The position numbers and the translations under genes were made by a program. Shown in pieces: positions 4,748 through 32,772 of a stretch of 64,000 nt of DNA (position 1 is the first letter of the stretch; each line of letters opens with the position of its first letter). The notes under the pieces are model-generated. The model had not been told where the DNA came from, did not search any database, and saw only the letters and a program-made list of their open reading frames with translations. The DNA comes from Sphaerisporangium sp. TRM90804 (GTDB lineage: Bacteria > Actinomycetota > Actinomycetes > Streptosporangiales > Streptosporangiaceae), in contig NZ_JARWAC010000007.1 in the NCBI RefSeq assembly GCF_029846175.1, positions 62,001 to 126,000 of the forward strand, in the 5' to 3' direction.

Positions 4748-5137
4748 GTGACGGCGGAACCACCCCGGGACGCCGCGCTCTCCCCGGCCGAGCGGGAGAC
4801 CCTGCGGCGGCTGCTCGGGGACGACCGTGAGCGGACCATGGAGCGCATCGCCTCGCTGACGCGCGACTGGGACGCCATGGTCGAGTCGTCCGCGCTGGTG
4901 GCGACCGACGACGAGCACGATCCCGACGGGTCGTCGACGGCCTTCGAACGCGCCCATGTGCAGTCGCTGCTCGACCAGGCGCGGAGCCATGTCGCCGATC
5001 TCGACACGGCGCTGGAACGGCTGCGCGGCGGCGCCTACGGGGTGTGCGAGGGCTGCGGGTCCCCCATCGCCGTCGAACGCCTGATGGTCCGCCCGGCGGC
5101 CAGGACGTGCGTCGGCTGCGCGGCCGCCCGGCGGTGA
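4748..5137 (+). CDS. DksA/TraR-type C4 zinc-finger protein
   Basis: 129 residues with a predicted coiled-coil N-terminal half and a C-terminal C4 zinc finger made by CEGC (about residues 99-102) and CVGC (near 122). This is the layout of DksA/TraR proteins, which reach into the RNA polymerase secondary channel. Actinobacterial versions are short and their target is largely untested. GTG start preceded by a strong purine-rich ribosome site at about 4728-4740. It stands alone between the GH67 gene and a hydrolase gene, with no operon partner. The acidic coiled-coil tip residues of classical DksA are not clearly conserved, so ppGpp-linked function should not be assumed. Confidence 0.8.
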   Translation: MTAEPPRDAALSPAERETLRRLLGDDRERTMERIASLTRDWDAMVESSALVATDDEHDPDGSSTAFERAHVQSLLDQARSHVADLDTALERLRGGAYGVCEGCGSPIAVERLMVRPAARTCVGCAAARR

Positions 5138-5804: not shown

Positions 5805-6515
5805 TCAGCTCGCCACGTAGACGGTGTTGGTGGACTCCCGTCCCTGGAGGAAGTTGTGGAAGGGGACGACGTGCGCCCGCGAGCTGCCGAAGACCTCGGC
5901 GAGCGCGGCGGTGAAGTCGTCGTCCGGGGGGTCGTTCGACCACAGGGCCAGCACACCGCCCGCGCGAAGATGGGCGGCCACCCGGCGCAGGCCCGCCGGG
6001 GTGTAGAACGCGGCGTGGCTGGGGTGCAGCACGTGGCGCGGCGAATGGTCGATGTCCACGAGTATCGCGTCGAAGCGGGCGTCCGGCGCCCGGGGGTCCA
6101 GGCTCGGGGAGGAGGCCGCCATCGCGAAGAAGTCGCCGTCGACCAGCCGGCAGCGGGGGTCCGACGTCAGCCGGGCGCCGATCGGCAGCAGCTTCGCCTC
6201 GTGCCACTCGATCACCTCGTGCAGCGCCTCCACGACGACGAGCGATCGCACGCGGGCGTGTTCCAGCACGGCCTGCGCCGTGTAGCCCAGGCCGAGCCCG
6301 CCGACGACGACGTCGAGATCCGCGCCCGGCAGCGCCGCCAGGCCGAGCCGGGCGAGCTCGATCTCGGCGACCGTGAACAGGCTCGACATGAGGTAGTCGT
6401 CGTCGAGCTTGATCTCGTAGACGTCGACGTCGAGCGAGGGTTCCCGCCGGCGCCGCAGGCTGAGCTCTCCGATCGGCGTCGCGCGCCAGTCGAGCTCCTC
6501 GAAGCGCGCGCTCAT
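5805..6515 (-). CDS. Spermidine-synthase-fold protein (SAM-methyltransferase-like)
   Basis: 236 residues with a Rossmann fold of the spermine/spermidine synthase type: glycine-rich motif VVGGLGLGYTAQAV near residues 69-82, acidic strand end VVVEALHEVIEW, and the motif ILVDIDHSPRHVL that in polyamine synthases carries the active-site aspartate. Members of this group in actinomycetes are often annotated spermidine synthase without evidence for polyamine production. No aminopropyl-donor gene (speD/speE operon) is nearby, so the substrate is unknown. Start ATG preceded by GGAAGG. Convergent with the isochorismatase-like gene, only 39 bases between stop codons. Confidence 0.75.
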   Translation of the reverse strand: MSARFEELDWRATPIGELSLRRRREPSLDVDVYEIKLDDDYLMSSLFTVAEIELARLGLAALPGADLDVVVGGLGLGYTAQAVLEHARVRSLVVVEALHEVIEWHEAKLLPIGARLTSDPRCRLVDGDFFAMAASSPSLDPRAPDARFDAILVDIDHSPRHVLHPSHAAFYTPAGLRRVAAHLRAGGVLALWSNDPPDDDFTAALAEVFGSSRAHVVPFHNFLQGRESTNTVYVAS

Positions 6516-20379: not shown

Positions 20380-20421
20380 GGAGCCGCCACCTCCACGGCC
20401 GGAGAGGTGGGTGGGGTCATG
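20236..20421 (-). repeat. 42-bp tandem repeat, each unit carrying a ribosome site and start codon
   Basis: Units begin with gaggtg at 20236, 20278, 20320, 20362 and 20404, exactly 42 bases apart. On the minus strand each of the four full units reads GGAGGTGG, about eight bases, then a start codon (GTG or ATG). The fifth unit has lost one base and contains the mannosidase stop codon overlapping an ATG (ATGA, 20417-20420), which is therefore out of frame with the downstream gene. 42 is a multiple of three, so the other starts are in one frame. Confidence 0.85.
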
Positions 20422-23400
20422 GGGCCACCACCACCTTCACGGTCGGGGCGTACTGGCAGCGGCCGAACCACATCACCTTGGCCAGCGCCCAGTAGGAGCC
20501 GGGGTCGGCGTCGCGCGGAACCGTGACGTCGAAGGTGACGGTGCCTTCGGCGCCCGCCGCGAGCGTGAACCCCCGGACGGGGGCGGCGATGGCGTCCCAC
20601 GTCCCCCAGGGGGAGACGACCTGGAGCTCGCCCCTGATCTCACCGCGGGTCCAGTTGGCCAGCGTCACGCCGAGCGCGCCCCGCCCGCCCGGCTCGACGC
20701 GCACGGACGTGGAGACGACGTCGACCGACAACCCGGTGTCCCGTGCCATGCCCGCGGTCGTCCCCTGCGCGGCCGCCCAGTCCTCGGGGATGGCGCCGGG
20801 CACCGGCAGCAGCCCGGGGAGGTCGCCGACGGCGATCGTCGCGACGTCCTCGACGCTCTGGCCGTCGTGCTCGATGCGGGTGGCGAGGAAGTACAACCCG
20901 GGCTCCACGCCCGGGGGCGGCGTGAGCGTCACCGGGAAGCGCAGGTGGCCGTCCGGTTCGAGCCGGTACGGACGGCGCGCGGGGGTCGCCGTCCAGCCCT
21001 CGGGCGCGACGAGCACGACGGCGCCCTCCACGGCGGCGTCGCGAAGCTGCGAGCTGATCACCACCGACGCCTCGACCGGCTCGCCGCCCGTGGCGCGCGC
21101 CAGCCCGGGCGACACCGCGACCGAGACCGGCAGGTAGCCCAGCGGCGCCGGGCCCCGGTTGTGCAGCCAGTACCGCGCGTGCACGGGCTGGGCGATCTCG
21201 GCCACCGGCCCGAGCCGGCCGCCCTCGGCCACCGATCTGAGCTGGGCGCCCTGGGTCACCGGCCCGAGCGTCCCCCCACCACCACCCCCGGAGGCCGGGT
21301 CGCCAGCATGCGCCGCCGAAGCGGGCGCCCCATGGCCCGGCTCGCCGGGAACGCCGTGCTGCGGGGGCGCCGGTACACCGTGGCCCGGAGCGGGCGGGGT
21401 GCCGTCGACCGGGGTGGGCGCGCCGGGGCGGGGAGTGCCCGGGACGGCGATGACGGTCGCGACCTCCGAGCCGGTGAGCTCGATGGGGCCGGTGAGCGGG
21501 TCGCCGGGGCGTTCCAGGAGGTCGGCGGTGCGTAGGGCGGTGAGGTCGAGGGCGCCGGTGAGGCGGGTGGTCGTCGCCAGGCCGGTGGACTCCATCAGTC
21601 GCAGCGTGACGCCGCGCGAAGGGTCGACGGGGGCGGCGGAGCCTTGGGCGATCGGGTCGCCGGTGGGCTTCACCGTGCCGAGCAGCACGTCCCGGGCGGG
21701 TTCGACCCGGAGGTATGACCTGGTGGGCGGCAGCGGGCCCTCGTGCGCGTCGGTGAGCACCGCGTAGAGGGGGTGGTTGAACTCCTGGCCGCGCGCGGGC
21801 AGGGTGGCGGCGCGCCAGTCGCCGTCGCCGGAGACGAGGGCGTAGGAGAAGTCGTGCGTCCAGTGCTGTAGCTGGAACGACGTCCCGTCGGGCGCGGTGC
21901 GCTTCGGCGGGTCGATCCACACGCCCGACGGCCACCCGGTGCACGACCGCATCAGCGACAGGTGCATGGCGCCGGTCGGGTCGACGGCGAATCCGGGCAG
22001 CCCGAAGGTGAGCAGCCCGACCGTGTGGTCGGTCAGCACCTCCGGCTCGGGCACCGGCCCGGGGCACACCGCCGAGACCCGCGCGTCGGCGAGGTCGGCC
22101 GCGAGCGCCGCCGCGTCGGTGACCACCAGCGCCGGCAGCGCCCGCAGGTCGCGCAGGTCGGCGTTGGGCCGCCACACCTCGTGCAGCGGCTTCCCGGCCG
22201 GAACCCACACACGTCCGTGCCTGGCCAGCGTCTCGGCGTACTCCGCGCCGGCGGCCTGGAGCAGGTCGCGCGCCGCCTCGTTGGTCTGCGGCCCGCCGAT
22301 CACGATCCGGAAGTCCGGCAGGTTGGAGTCGACGTCGAGCCAGCCGTACCGGGCCCACCCGGCGCTCGCGGTCGTCGCGGTCACGCCCACCCGGGCCAGC
22401 GCGACCACCAGGTCGCGGGCGTCGGCGGCGTCGTCCAGGGCCGGTACGACGACCTCGGCGACGCCGAGCGCCCGGTCGCCCAGCGGCGTACCGCCGGGGT
22501 CGGCGAGCGAGACGCGGGCCGTCGAGCTGAGCCCGAACCAGGTGTTGGCCGGGTTGTCCAGCGTCCACGGCGCTTCGGCGGAGTCGACGTCCGGCAGCGC
22601 GAAGCCGCGCCCGACGACGGCGCCCGCGACCTCGCTGACCGGCAGCGCGCCCGGCAGGTCGACGGGGAAGCGCACGCGCAGCAGGCGGTCGGCGCCCGCG
22701 TGGTCGACGACCCGGGTGCCGAAGTCGACCCGGTCGACGCCGTGCCACAGGGTGACGGTCTGCCGGTAGCCGATGCCGTCCACGGTGCCCGTGACGACCA
22801 GGCGCGAGCCCAGCGGGCTGGTCTCGGCCCGCACGGTCGCCGGCGACTCCGACGACCCGACGACCGGCCCGCGCGGGATCAGGTGCCACGGCCCCTCGCC
22901 GAAGTCCGGGTGCGCCGGGTACTCCTCGTACACCCGCAGCTCGTTGCCGACGTGACCGTCGCGGACCAGCTCGCGGCCGGACGCCTTGTCGTAGACACTG
23001 CGCAGCCCGCCGCCCCGGGCGGGGTCGGCGGTGACGACGTAACGCTCGTTCTCGATGACGGCGCCGCCGGCCGGAGCCCACGCCGGCTCCTCGGCGGACG
23101 TCCCGGGCAGCAGCCGCCAGGTGCGCCACCCCATGGCGGGCACGTCACGCGCGTGGAACCGCAGCGTGCCCCGGTCGACCACACAGGCGACCTCCGCGCC
23201 GGAGTCGTCGACGACCCGCCCGCCCTCCAGGCCGTCCGGGAGCCGCACGGCGACCAGGGCCGAGCGGTCGAACGACAGCGTGTTGGCGACGACGACCGGG
23301 ACCCCGTCCCCGGTGGTGTCCACCCGCCCGGCGAGCGCGGCGAGCGCGGCGTCCCGCACTCCGGCGGCCAGGTCGTGCGCCTCGCGCCAGCCCGACAGCA

Positions 23401-24814
23401 GGTCGATGTACACCTGATCGGACTCCGACCCGGTGATCGCGTCGTGGTGCGCGCCGTAGGCGAGCTGGCGCCACACCTTGTCCAGCGCCGCGCCGGGGTA
23501 GGTCCCGAGGTCCTCCAGCGCGGCGAGGGTGGCGAGCTTCTCGGCGTCGACGGCCGCGACCTCGCCGGCCCGCTGCGCCTGCTTGGTGTCGATGTACGAC
23601 ACGTCCTTGCCGGTGTACACGGGGTTCATGTCGCGGGTCTGCGGGCTCGGCCGCCGCCCGGTCGCCGCCAGCTCGGCCCGGACGGCGTCCAGGAAGTCGC
23701 GCGGCGTGCCGCAGACGAACCTCGGCCACACGTACTTCTCCGCCCACGACCGGTGGACCTCGGTGACCCACTTGTTCGGCGGCGTGTAGTCGGTGCCGAC
23801 CGGCAGCAGCAGGTTCCTGGTCGCTCCCACCGGCTTCAGCTTGGCGTACAGCTCGTAGACGGCCTGCTCGGCCGACGGCAGGTCCGGCGAGGAGTCCATC
23901 CACCACCCGGCCGAGTAGTGGTGCGGCATGAAGTGGGTGAGCACGCCGCGGCCGGACGGCGAGATCCACTCGAACTCGCTCGGGAACTGCATGACCCGGG
24001 CGTCGTTCTTCGACTCGCGGAAGTTCTTCTGGATCGGGCCCCACTGGTGGAACGGCCCGCGCGCCCAGGCCGAGCCGGTCAGGCCGGCCGCGTCGAGATA
24101 GCCGGGGAACTGCGGGTCGTGGCCGAAGACGTCGAGCTGCCAGGCGGTGCGCGGGTCGCCGCCGAGGATGTCGCGCTGGTACCCGACGCCGTAGACGATG
24201 TTGCGGATCGTGGTCTCGGCGCCGGTGAGGTTGGTGTTCGGCTCGTTGTACGTGCCGCCGACCAGCTCCACCTGGCCGCGCTCCATGAGCAGGCGCAGGT
24301 CGGCGCGGCGCTCGGGGTGCAGGTCGAAGTACGGCTTCAGGTAGTCGATCTCGGCGAGCACGAACCGGTACACCGGGTCGCGCAGCGCCAGGTCCAGGTG
24401 CGCGTCCACCAGCGCGAAGCCGTTGCGCTCCCACAGCGGCCGGGTGGTCGCGTCGCCCGACAGCAGCTCCCAGGGCGAGGTGTAGGCCGCCTGGGTGTTC
24501 CACCACACCGGGTCGTAGTGGAAGTGCGAGACCAGGAACATCGTCCAGCCCGGCTCGGCCACGGTCACGACGGCCTCGGCGCTCGCCTCCCCGGCGGTGA
24601 CGGTCACCGGCAGCTCGGCGCCGGTGACCGGGGCGGCGACGTCGAGCGGCACCTCGACCACTCCCGTGCCGGTCGCCTCGCCCGCGACCCCGGGGCCGGT
24701 CACCGTGACGCGGACGGGCGGGCCGTCGAGGGTCACGCGGAGCACCTGGCGGGCGGCGTCCTCGGTGCCGACGAACAGGTCGGTGGATTCTACGGCGGTG
24801 ATGGTGACCGGCAC
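20417..24814 (-). CDS. GH38 alpha-mannosidase
   Basis: 1465 residues, about 1.5 times the usual length. The GH38 core has the zinc-site entry SHFHYDPVWW near residue 95, the nucleophile D228 in QLDVFGHD, and GTYNEPNTNL, a family motif. It is followed by the beta-rich central and C-terminal domains of retaining mannosidases. About residues 1165-1220 are a Pro/Gly/His-rich linker with a GGGGGG run; the last 100 residues (ANWTRGEIRGEL, GSYWALAKVMWFG) look like an NPCBM-associated/NEW3 beta-sandwich. No signal peptide, so it likely trims imported mannose oligosaccharides inside the cell. GTG start at 24814; a much longer open frame upstream is read-through of the GH85 gene region in another frame. 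Follows GH5 and GH85 genes in one minus-strand operon. Confidence 0.93.
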   Translation of the reverse strand: MPVTITAVESTDLFVGTEDAARQVLRVTLDGPPVRVTVTGPGVAGEATGTGVVEVPLDVAAPVTGAELPVTVTAGEASAEAVVTVAEPGWTMFLVSHFHYDPVWWNTQAAYTSPWELLSGDATTRPLWERNGFALVDAHLDLALRDPVYRFVLAEIDYLKPYFDLHPERRADLRLLMERGQVELVGGTYNEPNTNLTGAETTIRNIVYGVGYQRDILGGDPRTAWQLDVFGHDPQFPGYLDAAGLTGSAWARGPFHQWGPIQKNFRESKNDARVMQFPSEFEWISPSGRGVLTHFMPHHYSAGWWMDSSPDLPSAEQAVYELYAKLKPVGATRNLLLPVGTDYTPPNKWVTEVHRSWAEKYVWPRFVCGTPRDFLDAVRAELAATGRRPSPQTRDMNPVYTGKDVSYIDTKQAQRAGEVAAVDAEKLATLAALEDLGTYPGAALDKVWRQLAYGAHHDAITGSESDQVYIDLLSGWREAHDLAAGVRDAALAALAGRVDTTGDGVPVVVANTLSFDRSALVAVRLPDGLEGGRVVDDSGAEVACVVDRGTLRFHARDVPAMGWRTWRLLPGTSAEEPAWAPAGGAVIENERYVVTADPARGGGLRSVYDKASGRELVRDGHVGNELRVYEEYPAHPDFGEGPWHLIPRGPVVGSSESPATVRAETSPLGSRLVVTGTVDGIGYRQTVTLWHGVDRVDFGTRVVDHAGADRLLRVRFPVDLPGALPVSEVAGAVVGRGFALPDVDSAEAPWTLDNPANTWFGLSSTARVSLADPGGTPLGDRALGVAEVVVPALDDAADARDLVVALARVGVTATTASAGWARYGWLDVDSNLPDFRIVIGGPQTNEAARDLLQAAGAEYAETLARHGRVWVPAGKPLHEVWRPNADLRDLRALPALVVTDAAALAADLADARVSAVCPGPVPEPEVLTDHTVGLLTFGLPGFAVDPTGAMHLSLMRSCTGWPSGVWIDPPKRTAPDGTSFQLQHWTHDFSYALVSGDGDWRAATLPARGQEFNHPLYAVLTDAHEGPLPPTRSYLRVEPARDVLLGTVKPTGDPIAQGSAAPVDPSRGVTLRLMESTGLATTTRLTGALDLTALRTADLLERPGDPLTGPIELTGSEVATVIAVPGTPRPGAPTPVDGTPPAPGHGVPAPPQHGVPGEPGHGAPASAAHAGDPASGGGGGGTLGPVTQGAQLRSVAEGGRLGPVAEIAQPVHARYWLHNRGPAPLGYLPVSVAVSPGLARATGGEPVEASVVISSQLRDAAVEGAVVLVAPEGWTATPARRPYRLEPDGHLRFPVTLTPPPGVEPGLYFLATRIEHDGQSVEDVATIAVGDLPGLLPVPGAIPEDWAAAQGTTAGMARDTGLSVDVVSTSVRVEPGGRGALGVTLANWTRGEIRGELQVVSPWGTWDAIAAPVRGFTLAAGAEGTVTFDVTVPRDADPGSYWALAKVMWFGRCQYAPTVKVVVAP

Positions 24815-24924: not shown

Positions 24925-26928
24925 CTACCAGGTCACGGTGGTCCTGGCGGCACGCGAGCGGCCGTACTCGGCCGACACGGCCTCCACCTCGATCGTGGTG
25001 GCGGTCTCGGCGCCGGCCCGGTCGAGCCGGGGGACGAAGTAGACGTGGTTGGGCGTGCCGCCGAGGTACGCGCGCGTGCCGTCGGGGTAACGCCGGTACA
25101 CGTCGTAGTGGTGCACGGACCCGTGCCTGGGCGGCGTCCACGACAGGCGCACCGACTTGCCGGCGGGCGTGAGGTCGGCCGTGCCGAGGACGGACGGCCT
25201 GATCGGCGGGCTCGGCCGCTCGACCGCGCCGTCGTAGACGGCGATCTGGCCGACGCGCACGTCGTAGGAGGCGACCGTGGCGGGCGCGGAGGCTCGCAGG
25301 CCGATCTGCGCGATCGTCTTCCCGCGGTGGGCCGACAGGTTCAGCGTCCTGCGCTCCCAGCCGGCGCCGCGGGTGGGGCCGAGGTCGATCGTGGTGAACT
25401 TCGTGGGCGCGTCGGTGAAGGCGACGGCGGCCTTGAGGTTGGTCGCGCCGGCCCGCGGCGTCTTCACCACGACGGACAGCTTGGTGTCGGCGGCCACCGG
25501 CAGCCGGGTCTGGTAGAGCCGCACGGTGTTGGGCGCGTCGAGCCGCCCGGACAGGCGCAGCGAGGAGCCGCCCTCGTAGGCGTCGCCGAAGTCGATCGAC
25601 GGGGTCAGCCTGGTACCACTCGACGACACCACCCAGCGGTAGGTGGGCAGCACGTCCTGCAGGGACAGGTTGTTCCAGCCGCCGGTGCCCACCCGCGCGC
25701 CGGCCACGTTGTAGAAGTCGCCCTGGCCGGTGTTGAAGCCGGTCACGAACGGCTTGGCGGTCACCGGCGTCGACTCGGCGACGTAGGAGGCCAGGCCCTT
25801 CCAGGGCGAGGTGGTCTCCGTGTTCGAGGGGTCGGCGTTGGCGCCGACCCAGTAGCGCGAGTCCCTGGCGTAGAAGTCGGCGCGGCCGCTGGACGACTTC
25901 CACGTCCACTCGGGCCGGTAGAGGCCGAGCGAGGTGACGTGCGGCCGGCCGGGCGGGAACAGGGCGTCCCAGGCGACGGGCGTGTCGTATCCCCTGGACT
26001 CGGTGTCGATGCCGGTGAACAGGTCGTACTCGCTGCGGCCGAGCGCCCTGGCGCGGTCGCGCGAGGCGGCCAGGCCCTCCTGAGTCCACCAGAAGTTGAG
26101 GAACATCGAGTGCGAGACGGGGGCGGGGTCGGCCAGGTAGGCGTCGTTGGCCGGGGTGAGCGCGTTCTGCCAGTCGACCGGGCCGTCCTCGGTCATCGCG
26201 TCGTACCACATGAAGTCGAGCTTCGGGCTCTCGGCGCGGGCGTACTTGATCAGGTCGCGCATGGACGTGGCCAGCTCGGCGTCCGCGCCCTCGGTCTCCT
26301 GGTTGATGAACCAGCCGTCGAACCCGTAGTACTCGGCCACCTCGGCCAGCTTGTCGGCGACCGGGAAGCGCGAACCGTCCTTCTGGACGAAGTCGCGGAC
26401 CCACCGCAGCTCGCCGCCGTACACGGTCGGCGGGAAGAAGACGTTGCCGTAGACCTTCACGCCGTTGCGGTGCGCGGCGTCGATCACCGTGGCGTTCGGC
26501 GCGAGGATCAGCCCTTCGCTGGCCGACCCGCCCCAGAAGACGAGCTTGTCGACGTACTGCCAGTGCCCGAACGCGTAGTAGTCGGAGTCGGGCGAGCCCT
26601 GGGAGGGGTTGCCCGACGTGGGCCCGAACGAGACCAGCGAGGCGATGCGGCCCTCGCCCGCCCGGGCGCCGGCGTTCGCCTTGAGCGCCGGGTCGGCGGC
26701 GCGGGGCCGCAGCGGCGTGAACGAACGGTTGAAGCGGGCGTCGGGGTCGGTGGCGGGGTCCCAGCGCAGGAGCGTGTCCGGGTACCAGTACGAGGCGAGC
26801 GGCTGCCCGCCCGGGGCGGGCGCCGTGGCCGTGCCGTCCTGTCCGGACGGCCGGGCCTGCGCGGGCGCGGCGGCGAGCGCCGTGACCGTCAGCGCCGCGG
26901 CCAGCACGGATGACACTCTTCGTCGCAT
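24925..26928 (-). CDS. Secreted GH85 endo-beta-N-acetylglucosaminidase
   Basis: 667 residues. Signal peptide MRRRVSSVLAAALTVTALAA with cleavage near AQA. The GH85 barrel shows PLASYWYPDTLL, FTPLRPR, KVYGNVFFPP and, around residues 205-213, YGFDGWFINQETEG: the Asn-x-Glu pair used for substrate-assisted hydrolysis of the chitobiose core of N-glycans. A jelly-roll-like region follows (about 430-590), then a C-terminal fibronectin-III-like domain (LSWTPPRHGSVHHYDVYRR). ATG preceded by AAGGAG. This enzyme would free high-mannose glycans from glycoproteins outside the cell, leaving one GlcNAc on the protein, before uptake by the nearby importer. Confidence 0.92.
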   Translation of the reverse strand: MRRRVSSVLAAALTVTALAAAPAQARPSGQDGTATAPAPGGQPLASYWYPDTLLRWDPATDPDARFNRSFTPLRPRAADPALKANAGARAGEGRIASLVSFGPTSGNPSQGSPDSDYYAFGHWQYVDKLVFWGGSASEGLILAPNATVIDAAHRNGVKVYGNVFFPPTVYGGELRWVRDFVQKDGSRFPVADKLAEVAEYYGFDGWFINQETEGADAELATSMRDLIKYARAESPKLDFMWYDAMTEDGPVDWQNALTPANDAYLADPAPVSHSMFLNFWWTQEGLAASRDRARALGRSEYDLFTGIDTESRGYDTPVAWDALFPPGRPHVTSLGLYRPEWTWKSSSGRADFYARDSRYWVGANADPSNTETTSPWKGLASYVAESTPVTAKPFVTGFNTGQGDFYNVAGARVGTGGWNNLSLQDVLPTYRWVVSSSGTRLTPSIDFGDAYEGGSSLRLSGRLDAPNTVRLYQTRLPVAADTKLSVVVKTPRAGATNLKAAVAFTDAPTKFTTIDLGPTRGAGWERRTLNLSAHRGKTIAQIGLRASAPATVASYDVRVGQIAVYDGAVERPSPPIRPSVLGTADLTPAGKSVRLSWTPPRHGSVHHYDVYRRYPDGTRAYLGGTPNHVYFVPRLDRAGAETATTIEVEAVSAEYGRSRAARTTVTW

Positions 26929-27038: not shown

Positions 27039-28277
27039 TCAGGCCGGGGTCAGGACGGCGTCGATGCCGCGGGCGGCGAGGTAGGCGGGGTCGGCCGCGC
27101 GGTCGGCGCCGACGATGGCGAGCGGCCCGACCTGGCGCAGCCGCACCCACTCGGCGTGGAACTCACTGCCGGGCGCCACCTCGCCCCGCCGCTCGGGCTG
27201 GGTGCGCAGGTCGACGCCGCACACCAGCGCCGGGCGGGGCGCCGGCGCCGGCCGGCCGGCGCGCGACTCGGCGACGACCGCCGCGAGCTCCCGGGTGGCC
27301 GGCTTGATCTCGTGGTCGACGGTGAACAGGCCCAGGTCGTACTCGCGGTCGGGGAAGTCGGCCAGGCTCCGGTCGAGGTCGTGCGAGCACCACCAGGTGA
27401 CGCCCCACAGCGCCGGGTTGGGGGTGACCGCGTCGAGCAGCCCCCGGACGAACGCCGGCGCGTCGCGCTCGCCGATGTCGGGGCGCGGGGCGCCGACCTC
27501 CTGCAGCCAGACCGGCCGCGCCGGGTCGAGCGCGCTCGCCGCCGCCAGCTCCACGAGGTAGTCGGCGTGCGAGACGGTGGCCGGGCCGAGCGGCCCGTCG
27601 ACGGCCGAGACGCCGTTGAACACCCAGGAGTGGACCGTCGTCAGGCCGCCGAGGTCGGTGGCGTCGACCGGCCGGAACGGGTGGCCGGGGTCGTACCACG
27701 TCGCGTCGTAGACCGAGTGCAGGGCGAGCAGGCGCGGCGCGGCGGAGCGGGCGACGTCGAGCAGCTCGGCGGCCCAGCGGGTGGAGTCCTCGGGGGTGGT
27801 GGGGTTGGACGGCCACAGGTTGTCGACCTCGTTGCCGAGCGTCACGGCGAACACGTTGTCGCGGGTCGCCACCTCCCGGGTCAGCCGGTCGACGTACGCG
27901 GCGACGCCGTCGCGCACCGCCGGGTCGGTGAACAGGCTGCGCCGGTGCCAGGTGAGCACCCAGGACGGCAGGAAGTCGAAGCTCGACAGGTGGCCCTGCA
28001 GCAGGTCGACCGAGACGCCGAGGCCGAACTCGGCGGCGACGTCGACGAGGCTGAGCAGGTCGTCGACGCCGCGCTGCCTGATCAGCGTGCGGTTGGGCTG
28101 GATCCACGGCCAGATCGGGAAGACGCGCACGTGGTCGAGCCCGATGCCCGCGAGGTCGGCGAGGTCGCGGCGGGCGTCGTCCGCCGAGAAGTCGAGCCAG
28201 CTGTAGAACCACCCGGCCGACGGCACGTAGTTCGCCCCGAAGCGGAGCGGGGCTTGGCTGGGCGGTTGCGGTGTCAC
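27039..28277 (-). CDS. GH5-family beta-mannosidase-like enzyme (GH5_18-like)
   Basis: 412 residues, no signal peptide. A clan-A barrel with FGANYVPSAGWFYSW at the start, acid/base E150 in TLGNEVDN and nucleophile E260 in WLQEVGAP, plus FPIWPWIQPNRT and LQGHLSSFDFLPSW. These strings recall GH5_18 enzymes of bifidobacterial N-glycan loci, which cleave Man-beta-1,4-GlcNAc; the subfamily is my reading, not a computed result. A cytoplasmic enzyme that splits the last mannose from the core GlcNAc fits with GH85 and GH38 in the same operon. GTG start; GGAGGA lies only three to four bases before it, closer than ideal. It is the first gene after the LacI operator at 28337-28350. Confidence 0.85.
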   Translation of the reverse strand: MTPQPPSQAPLRFGANYVPSAGWFYSWLDFSADDARRDLADLAGIGLDHVRVFPIWPWIQPNRTLIRQRGVDDLLSLVDVAAEFGLGVSVDLLQGHLSSFDFLPSWVLTWHRRSLFTDPAVRDGVAAYVDRLTREVATRDNVFAVTLGNEVDNLWPSNPTTPEDSTRWAAELLDVARSAAPRLLALHSVYDATWYDPGHPFRPVDATDLGGLTTVHSWVFNGVSAVDGPLGPATVSHADYLVELAAASALDPARPVWLQEVGAPRPDIGERDAPAFVRGLLDAVTPNPALWGVTWWCSHDLDRSLADFPDREYDLGLFTVDHEIKPATRELAAVVAESRAGRPAPAPRPALVCGVDLRTQPERRGEVAPGSEFHAEWVRLRQVGPLAIVGADRAADPAYLAARGIDAVLTPA

Positions 28278-28336
28278 ACGTCCTCCGGCGGCAGGGCGGC
28301 GCGGGGCGGACGTCCGCCGCGCTCGGCCCTGGCAGC

Positions 28337-28350
28337 CTAAACCGCTTTAG
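28337..28350 (-). promoter_or_regulatory. LacI operator overlapping the lacI stop codon, upstream of the GH5-GH85-GH38 operon
   Basis: On the minus strand CTAAAGCGGTTTAG: arms CTAAA and TTTAG around GCGG. It is built from the last four codons and stop codon of the lacI gene (encoding TKAV then TAG). It differs by one base from the site at 29563-29576 in front of the importer operon. It lies about 60 bases before the GH5 start codon. Confidence 0.75.
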
Positions 28351-29377
28351 TTGAATCTGCCAAGGGCGGCGGCGAGGTGCTCTCGCGGACGGTGAGCCGG
28401 GGGGTGGGCGTCTTGCGGTTCACCCGCCGGGCGGGGTCGGCGACCAGGGCCAGCATGGCCTCGGCCACCTCCCGGCCGAGCGCGAAGGTGTCGCGCGACA
28501 TCGCGGTCAGGGCGGGGTGGACGATGCGCGTGAGCACCGAGTCGTCGAAGGCGACGATCGACAGCTCGGCCGGGACGGCGACCCCCATCTCGGCGGCCAC
28601 CCCGAGCCCGGCCACGGCCATGAGGTCGCTGTCGTAGACGATCGCGGTGGGCCGCTCGGCGCGCGACAGCAGCGTGCGGGTGACCGCCGCCCCCTCGGCG
28701 TCGCTGAAGTCGGTCGGCAGCGAGGCGACGCCGGTCAGCCCGAGCCGCCGCGCCGAGTCGCGCAGCGCGCGCATGCGGCGCTGTGTGTGCTGGAACGCCG
28801 GCAGCCCCGCCACGTGGGCGATGCGCCGGTGCCCCAGCGCGGCGAGGTAGTCGACGATCGAGAGCATCGCCTCGCGGTCGTCGGCCCACACGCTGGACAG
28901 CGTCCCGTGGGCCCCGGGGCCGCCCAGGACGACCGCCGGCACGCCGAGGTCCTCGACGACCTTGGGGCGCGCGTCGCGGAGCTTCAGGTCGACCAGGATG
29001 AAGCCGTCCACCCGGTGCTCGGAGGCCCAGCGCCGGTAGACCTCGATCTCGGCCTCGGTGTCCTCGACGACCATCAGCTCCAGCGCGACCGAGCTGGCCG
29101 ACAGCTCCGCCTGCAGGCCGGACAGCAGTTGGGCGAAGAACGGCTCCACCCCGATGGCGCGGGCGGGCCTGGCGATGACGAGGCCGACGGCCCCGGCGCG
29201 CGCGCCCCCGAGGGCGCGGGCCGCGGTGTGCGGGCGCCAGTTCATCTCCTCGGCGGCCCGCAGGATGCGGGCCCGCGTCGCCTCGCTGACGCCGGGCCGG
29301 CCGTTGAGCGCGAACGACACCGCGCCTTTGGAGACCCCGACGCGGCGGGCGATGTCCTCGATCGTCGGTCGCGCCAC
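28337..29377 (-). CDS. LacI-family transcriptional repressor of the N-glycan locus
   Basis: 346 residues. N-terminal LacI helix-turn-helix: ARPTIEDIARRVGVSKGAVS followed by a second helix and the hinge (RPHTAARAL). The rest is the periplasmic-binding-protein-like effector domain that would sense an imported sugar. GTG start with AAAGGTGA upstream. It lies between the importer operon, transcribed the other way, and the glycosidase operon, transcribed the same way. Near-identical 14-bp dyads occur at its own stop codon and within the importer promoter, so it very probably controls both. Whether lacI mRNA reads into the glycosidase genes is open, since only 59 bases separate its stop from the GH5 start. 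Confidence 0.92.
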   Translation of the reverse strand: MARPTIEDIARRVGVSKGAVSFALNGRPGVSEATRARILRAAEEMNWRPHTAARALGGARAGAVGLVIARPARAIGVEPFFAQLLSGLQAELSASSVALELMVVEDTEAEIEVYRRWASEHRVDGFILVDLKLRDARPKVVEDLGVPAVVLGGPGAHGTLSSVWADDREAMLSIVDYLAALGHRRIAHVAGLPAFQHTQRRMRALRDSARRLGLTGVASLPTDFSDAEGAAVTRTLLSRAERPTAIVYDSDLMAVAGLGVAAEMGVAVPAELSIVAFDDSVLTRIVHPALTAMSRDTFALGREVAEAMLALVADPARRVNRKTPTPRLTVRESTSPPPLADSTKAV

Positions 29378-29523
29378 GACTCACCTTTCCCAACTCTTCC
29401 AGGGGTGCCGGGTCGCACGGGCCCGCCGGGCCCGCGCCTCGCCCGGCGTGCGGCGGCGGGCCCGGCCTCGCCTGCGGCCCGTCGCACCGAAGGGTCTCGG
29501 AACCCGGGGGTTCGTCTCAACCC

Positions 29524-29576
29524 TTGACATCGGAGTCTAGTGAGGTGGATAGTCCCCAGTCACTAGAGCGGTTTAG
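29524..29576 (+). promoter_or_regulatory. Promoter and LacI operator of the sugar importer operon
   Basis: TTGACA at 29524-29529, an 18-base spacer, and GATAGT at 29548-29553 as a plausible -10. Directly downstream, over the expected transcription start, is CTAGAGCGGTTTAG at 29563-29576, one base different from the operator at 28337-28350. A repressor bound here would block initiation. The remaining 120 bases to the first gene form a leader with no clear structure. Confidence 0.7.
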
Positions 29577-29708
29577 TAACCGAGGTGACCGGCGGGCTGT
29601 GAACGGTGGCCGGTTCACCCGTCACAGGTTCCGTGGCCGGGCTCGCGGAGCGGGAACCCGCGGCGGGCCGGGCGCCCGCACGGCGGACCGGTCATGGCAG
29701 GAGAGGTC

Positions 29709-30989
29709 ATGGGAAGAAACTGGGTAGGGCTGGCGGCGGCCGCGGTGGCGCTGTCGACGCTGGCGGCGTGCGGGCTCGGCGGCCCCGAGACCTCCAGCGC
29801 TCCGGCCGCGAGCGCCTCGGGCGAGGTGAAGGGCAAGGTCAGCCTGCAGACGTGGGCGCTGAAGCCGAAGTTCACCGACTACGTGCAGGGCGTCATCGAC
29901 TCCTTCGAGAAGAAGTACCCCGGGGTCGAGGTGCAGTGGCTCGACCAGCCCGGCGACGGGTACTCCGAGAAGGTCCTGACCCAGGCCTCCGGAGGCAGCC
30001 TGCCCGACGTGACCAACCTGCCGCCCGACTTCGCGCTGCCGCTGGTCAAGAACGGGCTGCTGGTCGACGTCGCCGCCGCCGACCCGAAGGTCGCCGAGGA
30101 CTACGTCCCCGGCGGCGTGGAGGGCTACCGCTACGCCGGCTTCGACGGCGTGTACGGGTACCCGTGGTACCTGAACACCGACGTCAACTACTGGAACACC
30201 GAGCTGCTCACGAAGAACGGGCTCGACCCCGAGGCGCTCCCCACCGACCTCGACGGCCTCATCGCCCAGGCGAAGGTCATGAAGGAGAGGTCCGGCGGCA
30301 AGGCCTACCTGATGAGCCGCAAGCCCACGCTGATCGACCTGACCAACGCGGGTGTGCAGGTCATGGCGCCCGACGGGAAGAGCTTCACGTTCAACACCCC
30401 CGAGGCCGCGGCCATCCTCGACAAGTACCGTGACGCGTTCAAGCAGGGCCTCATGCCCCGCGACGTGCTTACCACCAAGTACGCGGGCAACACGGCGCTG
30501 TTCAACTCCCGGACGGTCGCCTGGACGACGGCCGGCGGCAACTACATCACCAGCCTGGCCACCGACAACCCGTCGCTGGCCCCGAAGGTCGTCCCCTCGC
30601 CCGCGTTCGGCACTCCGCCGCTCTACGTGCAGGGCCTGTCGATCCCCAAGAGCACCAAGAACCTGCCTGCGGCCATCGCGCTCGCGCGGTGGGTCACCAA
30701 CGCGGAGAACCAGGCGGCCTTCGCCCACCTCGTCAACATCTTCCCCAGCACCAAGGCGTCGGCGAGCGACCCGTTCTTCAGCCAGAGCGACGGCACGCAC
30801 TCGGGCGACGCGAAGGTCATCGCGTTCACCTCGCTGGCCAAGGCGAAGATCCTGCAGCCCGTGCAGGTCACGCAGGCGATGAGCGACTTCGTCGACCAGC
30901 AGTTCGCGCTAGCGATCAGCGGCGACGAGTCCTCACAGAAGGCGCTCGACGACGCCGTCGCCAAGTGCGACCAGCTTCTCAACGGCTGA
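29709..30989 (+). CDS. Sugar-binding lipoprotein of the ABC importer
   Basis: 426 residues from the ATG at 29709, which is preceded by AGGAGAGG; an ATG five codons earlier would include that ribosome site. Lipoprotein signal peptide with lipobox LAAC (cysteine about residue 21), then an Ala/Ser-rich linker. The mature part is a family 1 extracellular solute-binding protein (MalE-like; LQTWALKPKF, AFAHLVNIFPS). It presumably captures the N-glycan or mannose oligosaccharide released by the GH85 enzyme. First gene of a three-gene importer operon lacking its own ATPase; such systems usually share a common MsiK-type ATPase encoded elsewhere. Confidence 0.9.
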   Translation: MGRNWVGLAAAAVALSTLAACGLGGPETSSAPAASASGEVKGKVSLQTWALKPKFTDYVQGVIDSFEKKYPGVEVQWLDQPGDGYSEKVLTQASGGSLPDVTNLPPDFALPLVKNGLLVDVAAADPKVAEDYVPGGVEGYRYAGFDGVYGYPWYLNTDVNYWNTELLTKNGLDPEALPTDLDGLIAQAKVMKERSGGKAYLMSRKPTLIDLTNAGVQVMAPDGKSFTFNTPEAAAILDKYRDAFKQGLMPRDVLTTKYAGNTALFNSRTVAWTTAGGNYITSLATDNPSLAPKVVPSPAFGTPPLYVQGLSIPKSTKNLPAAIALARWVTNAENQAAFAHLVNIFPSTKASASDPFFSQSDGTHSGDAKVIAFTSLAKAKILQPVQVTQAMSDFVDQQFALAISGDESSQKALDDAVAKCDQLLNG

Positions 30990-31048: not shown

Positions 31049-31921
31049 ATGACGCACAAGCGCTGGTTCACCCCGTGGGTGCTGATCGCACCGGCCGCCG
31101 TCTGGCTCGTGGTCTTCTCCGCCTTACCGGCCGTGAACACGGTGATCCTGTCGTTCACCGACGCCAAGCCGCTCGGCGGCGGCGGCTTCGTGGGCCTGGA
31201 CAACTACACGCGGATGCTGGACGACCGGCAGCTCGTCGACGCGCTGGTCAACAGCATCGTCTACATGGCGGTCTGCCTTCCGCTGCTCACGTTCCTGCCC
31301 CTGCTGCTCGCGGTGCTGGTCGAGAAGAGGCTGCGCGGGATCACGTTCTTCCGCATCGCCTTCTACACCCCGGTGATCGCCTCTGCCGTCGTGGTCGGGC
31401 TCATCTGGGGCTGGCTGCTCGACGACCGCGGCCTGGTGAACGGCATGGCCGAACGGCTCGGCTTCCTGAGCGGGCCGCTGCCGTTCCTCACCGACCGCTG
31501 GCTGCTGCTGTTCAGCGCGATCAGCCTGACGGTCTGGAAGGGCCTGGGCTACTACATGGTCATCTACATGTCGGCGCTCGGCAACGTCAACCGGGAGCTG
31601 CACGAGGCCGCCGCCGTGGACGGCGCCGGCCGGGTGCGCCGGTTCGTCTCGGTCACCGTGCCCGGGGTGCGCAACACGATGCTGCTCATCTCGGTGCTGA
31701 TCGCCGTCTTCGGCCTGCGGGTCTTCTCCGAGCTGTACATCCTCTCCAACGGCACGGGCGGCCCCGGCGGCCGGGACATGTCGCTCGTGATGCTCATCCA
31801 GATGTACGGCCAGGGGCTGACCGGGCAGCTCGGCTACGCCTCGGCGCTCAGCGTCCTGCTGTTCGTGGTCACCGTCGGCCCGATGCTCGTGCTGATGCGG
31901 CTCAACCGGAAGGGGGCATGA
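31049..31921 (+). CDS. ABC sugar importer permease (MalF-type)
   Basis: 290 residues, six transmembrane helices, with the EAA coupling loop ELHEAAAVDGAGRVRRFVSVTVP between helices three and four (written here as EAAAVDGAG). Starts with AGGAG six bases before ATG and overlaps the next permease gene by four bases (ATGA). It forms the membrane heterodimer with the following protein. Confidence 0.92.
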   Translation: MTHKRWFTPWVLIAPAAVWLVVFSALPAVNTVILSFTDAKPLGGGGFVGLDNYTRMLDDRQLVDALVNSIVYMAVCLPLLTFLPLLLAVLVEKRLRGITFFRIAFYTPVIASAVVVGLIWGWLLDDRGLVNGMAERLGFLSGPLPFLTDRWLLLFSAISLTVWKGLGYYMVIYMSALGNVNRELHEAAAVDGAGRVRRFVSVTVPGVRNTMLLISVLIAVFGLRVFSELYILSNGTGGPGGRDMSLVMLIQMYGQGLTGQLGYASALSVLLFVVTVGPMLVLMRLNRKGA

Positions 31922-32772
31922 TGGCCGGCGGTGGTCGCGGGTTCAACGGCGTCTCGCCTGTGGAGAAGGTGGTCCGCTACACGCTGCTGGTGTTCGTGCT
32001 GGTCATCACCATCGGGCCGTTCCTGTGGCAGCTCTCGACGTCGCTCAAGGGCATCGGCGAGGACGTCTACACGCAGACGCCGAGCTTCATCCCCCAGCAG
32101 CCGACCCTCGGCAACTACGCCGAGGTGACCGAGACGATCCCCGTGTGGGCGTACGCCGGCAACTCGCTGTTCGTCGCCTTCATCGTGGTCGCCGGCAACG
32201 CGGTCGGGGCGACGCTCGCGGGCTTCGCCCTGGCCAAGCTGCGCTTCCGGGGGTCCAAGCCGGCGCTGGGGCTCTTCCTCGCGACGCTGGTGCTGCCCGG
32301 CGAGGTCACGATCATCTCCCAGTACGTCATCGTCCGGGGCCTCGGCTTCGCCGACTCGCTGGTCGGGGTGGCGCTCCCGGGGGCGCTCCAGATGCTCAAC
32401 GTGCTGCTGATGCGCACGGCGTTCCTGTCGATCCCGAAGGACATCGACTCCGCCGCGATCATCGACGGCGCCACGGTGTGGCAGCGCCTGGTGCACATCG
32501 GGCTGCCCAACGTGCGCGGCATGCTCAGCGTCGTGGTGATCTTCTCGTTCATCTACGCCTGGGACGACTTCCTGTGGCCGCTGATCGTGCTGACCGACCC
32601 CGACAAGTACACCCTCACCGTCGGCCTGCAGTACCTCAACGGCACCTTCACCTCCAACCCCCGCCTCATCGCCGCCGGCACCATGATCGCCTTCCTGCCG
32701 ATCGTGGCCGTCTTCGCCGTCCTGCAACGCTTCTTCTTCAAGGGCGTCGAAGCCGGCGCGATCAAGGGCTGA
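31918..32772 (+). CDS. ABC sugar importer permease (MalG-type)
   Basis: 284 residues, six transmembrane helices, EAA-like loop with SAAIIDGATVWQRLVHIGLP and the C-terminal FFFKGVEAGAIKG typical of MalG/LacG permeases. ATG at 31918 overlaps the upstream stop (ATGATG lets either ATG serve). Last gene of the importer operon; no ATPase gene follows. Confidence 0.92.
   Translation: MMAGGGRGFNGVSPVEKVVRYTLLVFVLVITIGPFLWQLSTSLKGIGEDVYTQTPSFIPQQPTLGNYAEVTETIPVWAYAGNSLFVAFIVVAGNAVGATLAGFALAKLRFRGSKPALGLFLATLVLPGEVTIISQYVIVRGLGFADSLVGVALPGALQMLNVLLMRTAFLSIPKDIDSAAIIDGATVWQRLVHIGLPNVRGMLSVVVIFSFIYAWDDFLWPLIVLTDPDKYTLTVGLQYLNGTFTSNPRLIAAGTMIAFLPIVAVFAVLQRFFFKGVEAGAIKG

Follow-up and report, generated by a model that had tools for sequence, protein, structure and literature searches.

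A gene for a LacI-type repressor ends inside a 14-bp palindrome in a stretch of 64,000 nucleotides of Sphaerisporangium sp. TRM90804 (contig NZ_JARWAC010000007.1, positions 62,001 to 126,000; "the window" from here on), and an almost identical palindrome lies before the divergent genes of an ABC importer. What is a putative operator doing on the stop codon of the repressor gene, and does it serve the end of that gene or something else?

The locus and the two palindromes

The genes and sites of the locus are the following:

20417..24625, - strand, GH38 alpha-mannosidase (Pfam PF01074, E 1e-51; approximate start codon)
24925..26928, - strand, GH85 endo-beta-N-acetylglucosaminidase (Pfam PF03644, E 2e-86; start codon picked by eye)
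27039..28277, - strand, GH5_18-type exo-beta-1,4-mannosidase, which opens the downstream operon (best PDB match 7lr7, ScGH5_18, E 4e-123)
28337..29377, - strand, lacI-type repressor gene, 346 aa (Pfam LacI PF00356 and Peripla_BP_3; PDB LacI-family matches)
28337..28350, - strand, predicted operator 1, CTAAAGCGGTTTAG, which contains the lacI stop TAG, the codons for KAV and the two final bases of the codon for T
29563..29576, + strand, predicted operator 2, CTAGAGCGGTTTAG, at the expected transcription start of the importer
29694..30989, + strand, ABC importer solute-binding lipoprotein (Pfam SBP_bac_8/SBP_bac_1)
31049..31921, + strand, ABC importer permease 1 (Pfam BPD_transp_1)
31930..32772, + strand, ABC importer permease 2 (Pfam BPD_transp_1; approximate start)

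The lacI product carries both an N-terminal LacI helix-turn-helix (PF00356) and a sensor domain (PF13377) above cut-off, as in the LacI/GalR family. The GH5_18, GH85 and GH38 genes lie 3' of lacI on its own strand and the importer is divergent; the GH5_18-type gene begins with GTG at 28277, and a Pfam search of it gave no match. GH38 together with GH5_18 has been proposed as a cytoplasmic pathway of N-glycan core degradation in Cutibacterium acnes (PMC6160142, available excerpt), therefore the locus likely has a role in N-glycan degradation by analogy. It shares this pair of families with the C. acnes loci as that excerpt describes them, and differs from them in adding GH85, the ABC importer and this LacI. 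In relatives the first gene 3' of lacI varies: it may be GH5_18, GH85 by itself (a GH5_18 relative then lying next to the importer), or something else.

The earlier note on this DNA had read an operator into the lacI stop codon and a near-identical twin about 1.2 kb away, and both are there. CTAAAGCGGTTTAG forms the final 14 nt of the lacI-type reading frame (28337-28350, - strand), which ends in ...STKAV-TAG, and CTAGAGCGGTTTAG lies at 29563-29576 (+ strand), downstream of the importer promoter. The common pattern CTARAGCGGTTTAG has two exact matches within the window, and these are also the only ones in the whole genome of 8,318,024 bp, where 0.018 would be expected from base composition and the reversed control gave 0. 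With up to 3 mismatches allowed, the window contains 4 matches against a mean of 1.57 in shuffled sequence (8 of 100 shuffles reach 4), a control that has little bearing on the exact matches.

Conservation among orthologous loci

We retrieved 80 loci, of which 79 had a lacI stop (L089 has none and was dropped); together with the window they make 80 rows, from Planotetraspora, Nonomuraea, Kitasatospora, Streptomyces, Kribbella, Catenulispora, Actinoplanes and other genera. All 80 rows have the upstream site if 3 mismatches are allowed, and 77 still have it with no more than 2. For the downstream site we counted matches with at most 2 mismatches lying from -60 to +300 of the lacI stop; 65 of the 80 rows have one, and 64 of these 65 share the same right arm, TTTAG. 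Random 350-nt windows of the same loci gave 0/800 matches at up to 2 mismatches and 2/800 at up to 3.

The downstream site goes with the glycosidase genes. All 53 rows in which GH5_18 or GH85 follows on the strand of lacI, no more than 2.5 kb downstream, have it, as do 12 of the 27 remaining rows. The 15 rows without it by our counting rule include L090, whose contig stops about 100 nt past the lacI stop and is too short to judge, L094, with a 2-mismatch site at about +308, beyond the counting range, and L103, L104 and L108, where the site on the lacI stop has 3 mismatches. The earlier note would have counted it against the operator if orthologues lost the dyad and kept the cluster. The dyad is indeed lost in these 15 rows, and at least L059, L111 and L112 among them keep the importer, but none has GH5_18 or GH85 downstream.

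In the three Catenulispora loci L103, L104 and L108, two GAACCGGTTCA palindromes stand 21-22 bp apart after lacI, the first of them on the stop codon. They may be a diverged operator pair or sites of another regulator.

Position of the sites in the predicted promoters

Three promoter features, called by consensus, were placed around the two sites:

28358..28363, - strand, predicted -35 of the promoter of the glycosidase operon, TTGGCA, within the lacI coding sequence
28334..28339, - strand, predicted -10 TAGGCT, whose TAG is also the end of the operator and the lacI stop codon
29524..29553, + strand, predicted importer promoter TTGACA-N18-GATAGT (TTGACA 29524-29529, GATAGT 29548-29553)

Site 1 of the window is straddled by a predicted promoter on the - strand, with TTGGCA at 28363-28358, 18 nt of spacer and TAGGCT at 28339-28334. 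The same arrangement is found across the rows. In 58 of the 65 rows the downstream site has both promoter elements around it, TTG[ACG]C as the -35 and TAGNNT as the -10; the -35 stands at offset -12 from the operator in 47 and at -13 in 11, matches to TTG[ACG]C at other offsets averaging 0.1 in the 65 sites, and TAGNNT coincides with the terminal TAG of the operator in 59. Since the site fills the 17-18 nt spacer between -35 and -10, it reads as the operator of the promoter of the next operon. Six promoter-bearing downstream sites have no GH5_18 or GH85 behind them (in L092 there is an alpha-amylase-family gene), so the regulated operon varies. The earlier note was right about a putative operator at the stop codon and missed its promoter, which lies on the strand of lacI itself and serves the downstream operon.

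Regarding the other site, it had been placed over the expected start of the importer promoter, and reading by eye agrees with this: site 2 begins 10 nt past the importer -10, at or just after the expected transcription start. A promoter of the importer type was recognised in 68 of the 80 rows and not in the remaining 12. Of these 68 rows, 67 have the upstream site 6-13 nt past the -10 and one has it 25 nt past. The palindrome is even, has a central CG and is conserved at both promoters across the rows. Both sites are kept and each is fixed relative to its own promoter, as would be expected if one repressor controlled both divergent units, and this comparison supports that proposal of the earlier note. 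In the spacer of the importer promoter an AGTNTA element (29534-29539 in the window) occurs in 46 of the 68 recognised promoters and is perhaps a further half-site.

Judged from the DNA and its conservation, we consider it quite probable that the 14-bp palindromes are LacI operators of an N-glycan locus, and that the downstream one belongs to the promoter of the next operon and has repeatedly been captured as the lacI stop. The LacI-type repressor would bind both palindromes and so control the importer and the GH5_18/GH85/GH38 operons. Because the downstream operator fills the spacer between -35 and -10, a repressor bound there would occupy it and exclude RNA polymerase; an N-glycan-derived sugar would presumably act as the inducer that releases the repressor. 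The predicted operator has become the lacI stop codon several times because the palindrome, CTAAA..CG..TTTAG, has stops in two of the three frames and lacI abuts the promoter. In the window the TAG appears to have three roles, as stop codon, as end of the operator and as first half of the -10.

Where the lacI gene ends

Bases 2-4 of the palindrome, in its left arm, read TAA or TGA, and bases 12-14, in its right arm, read TAG. According to the position of the lacI stop relative to the site, the 65 rows fall into four groups:

i) Stop at -11, formed by the TAG of the right arm. This is the case of the window and we found 24 rows.

ii) Stop at -1, formed by the TAA or TGA of the left arm, in 14 rows.

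iii) Stop directly ahead of the site (+3), in 5 rows.

iv) Stop well before the site, which then lies at +16 to +224, in 22 rows, 20 of them at +26 or more.

On the tree of LacI proteins the stop has changed position repeatedly. Counting well-supported branches, 9 or more changes are required for each of the overlap classes. There are 28 changes in all; 17 are needed for overlap versus no overlap and 6 for -11 versus -1.

In the last four codons of the 24 right-arm rows only 24 of 96 third positions are G or C, against 8112 of 8464 in the same genes outside the operator, and this reversal argues that the DNA is kept and not the peptide. Chance, or conservation of the protein C-terminus with no operator at all, has the shortness of the motif as its one argument and is hardly credible, given that the pair is unique in the genome, that random windows gave 0/800, that the DNA is conserved in two frames as well as outside the gene, and that codon usage is reversed.

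The earlier note had also proposed that its own DNA site limits what the C-terminus of the protein can be. One half of this stands, as in one frame the operator dictates the last residues (KAV, KSV, EPV, KAI, KEL or KTV). The other half does not: lacI ends before the site in 27 of the 65 rows and uses the other frame in 14, therefore TKAV is not conserved as protein. LacI length ranges from 336 to 401 aa over the rows, and the residues dictated by the operator are few and dispensable. In L063, L070 and L071 LacI has an extra tail of up to some 60 residues, with much Pro, Ala, Gly and Ser, which reaches the TAG of the operator and encodes the -35 on its way. Thus promoter and operator DNA can fix the end of a gene and its last amino acids, and a reading of the protein only would misjudge them.

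As a control we shifted the reading frame by 1 or 2 after the VREST-type motif, leaving out L051, which has no such motif. In the real frame 38 of 64 genes end in the operator, 26 before it and none beyond it; for the two shifted frames the respective figures are 46, 37 and 45 of 128. The difference in genes running past the operator (0/64 versus 45/128) gives p=7e-10 with related rows counted as independent, which they are not, and suggests that lacI is kept from running beyond the operator. Ending inside rather than before the operator, with rows again taken as independent, is no commoner in the real frame (38/64) than in the shifted ones (46/83, p=0.74). The simplest account of the overlap would be capture by the built-in stops, without extra selection for overlap.

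Comparison with E. coli lac and possible autoregulation of lacI

Overlap of an operator with the stop codon of its regulator is known from E. coli lac; in the present case the predicted site is placed inside a downstream promoter. The E. coli lacI TGA stop lies within GGGCAGTGAGCGCAACGCAATT, a stretch that we take to be O3, ahead of the lacZ promoter. What the two have in common is that the regulator gene has its stop codon within an operator of that regulator (a predicted one here), in the right arm in 24/65 rows and in the left arm in 14/65. They differ in that O3 is auxiliary and weaker and lies upstream of the lac promoter, whereas the predicted site here sits within the downstream promoter core, filling the spacer in 58/65 rows and having its TAG in common with the -10; furthermore, a second operon, on the opposite flank of lacI, would be controlled here. 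SsrA tagging of LacI is reported in a primary paper by Abo et al. 2000.

In E. coli, LacI bound at O3 acts as a roadblock to the transcription of lacI, and the truncated product is SsrA-tagged (PMC3711431, available part). The repressor might likewise halt lacI transcription before the stop here, giving a non-stop mRNA whose tmRNA-tagged product is destroyed, in which case the overlap would be the whole point of the site; this can coexist with the role in the promoter. Such autoregulation as the main purpose seems to us possible, though somewhat doubtful. In 43 of the 65 rows the stop falls within the site or immediately precedes it, so that a block would remove it, and the genome of the window contains a tmRNA gene. 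In the other 22 rows, those of group iv), a blocked mRNA probably keeps its stop. Ending inside the site is, as said, no commoner than in shifted frames, and the site is absent from 15 of the 27 rows without GH5_18 or GH85 downstream (L090 and L094 included). If the operator is primarily that of the downstream promoter, as we prefer to think, a block of lacI ahead of its stop, as at lac O3, might be a secondary, unproven effect. The loci form a natural series, in which the stop falls within the operator (in one or the other of two frames), shortly ahead of it or far ahead of it, and this makes the lac O3/tmRNA model of repressor autoregulation testable outside E. coli.

A survey of LacI-family regulons based on RegPrecise places less than 1% of sites in coding regions (PMC4052901, available part). 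The local sugar regulons in that part resemble this one in their even palindrome with a central CG and the divergent target operon. The low share of coding-region sites differs from the present case, where 24 of 65 sites extend over sense codons of the regulator gene and another 14 over its stop codon. Open-licence papers contained none of five 14-mers searched as typed; among the matches listed, we recognised no paper on this regulator and none with the phrase of operators overlapping a stop codon.

Sites on the stop codon without a promoter

The promoter pattern is missing from seven of the 65 downstream sites, those of L053, L057, L064, L076, L088, L106 and L109. In four of them, L053, L057, L064 and L109, the site is on the lacI stop, both -35 and -10 are absent and there is no GH5_18 or GH85 downstream, so the promoter does not account for every site. 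The first three form one well-supported clade and L109 is elsewhere on the tree. The 3' ends of these four lacI genes align as far as the site and the DNA behind does not; the 6 kb downstream of L053 gave no blastn match in L064, L057 or L109.

A search of 54 Nonomuraea genomes, which left out L151, L155, L158 and L160 (not parsed), gave 18 distinct parsable lacI genes, all 18 with the site. Thirteen have the promoter and 5 do not; all 5 are on the stop, and 4 of them come from strains already seen. The one locus thereby added, L165, has the same setting as L057, adjoining a convergent 5'-3' exonuclease gene. Its palindrome CTAAATCGATTTAG is perfect, lacI ending in ..AKSI and the exonuclease in ..PKSI. 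In three loci, L165, L057 and L053, the stop codon of the convergent gene is also within the site, the convergent gene of L053 being a reading frame without Pfam match.

The strongest indication that the site can have a role beyond the promoter comes from these promoter-less sites, which remain on the stop in L053, L057, L064, L109 and L165 and count in favour of autoregulation. One could go further and see in the operator on the stop an autonomous device of non-stop autoregulation that outlives its promoter, with one complex blocking two convergent genes in some Nonomuraea; we regard this as unlikely.

As a separate observation, L176 has CTAAATCGATTTAG at 4970-4983 as stored (6019-6032 of the reverse complement), with the stops of a lacI paralogue and of a convergent 5'-3' exonuclease, both K-S-I-stop.

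Proposed looping between the two sites

Two like sites about 1.2 kb apart and kept together could also be joined by a DNA loop across lacI, as lac O1 with O2 or O3, and the earlier note had suggested so. We found no support for this and consider it very improbable. Each site is tied to its own promoter, and the PDB match covers residues 4-332 of the 360 of E. coli LacI, with no C-terminal tetramerisation segment of the kind carried by lac-type looping repressors seen here. The tetramerisation helix of E. coli LacI presumably lies beyond residue 332, so that its region has no counterpart in this protein; the three long tails examined (L063, L070 and L071) are those rich in Pro, Ala, Gly and Ser described above.

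Similar palindromes at other LacI genes

We also surveyed other LacI genes for palindromes shared between both ends, in 60 loci, 13 of which were not found by the script. The survey was uninformative because GC-rich palindromes are common: 20 of 47 orientable genes passed, against 613 of 2162 mismatched pairs. Among the passing genes, pairs of the CTAAA type occurred only in close orthologues and in the gene of the window.

When one mismatch to CTAAANCGNTTTAG was allowed, the genome gave one additional place, CTAATACGATTTAG at C38:6583-6596 (genome G000, locus L143), 95 nt ahead of a LacI-type helix-turn-helix (C38:6691). It is possibly a related operator or a point of cross-talk.
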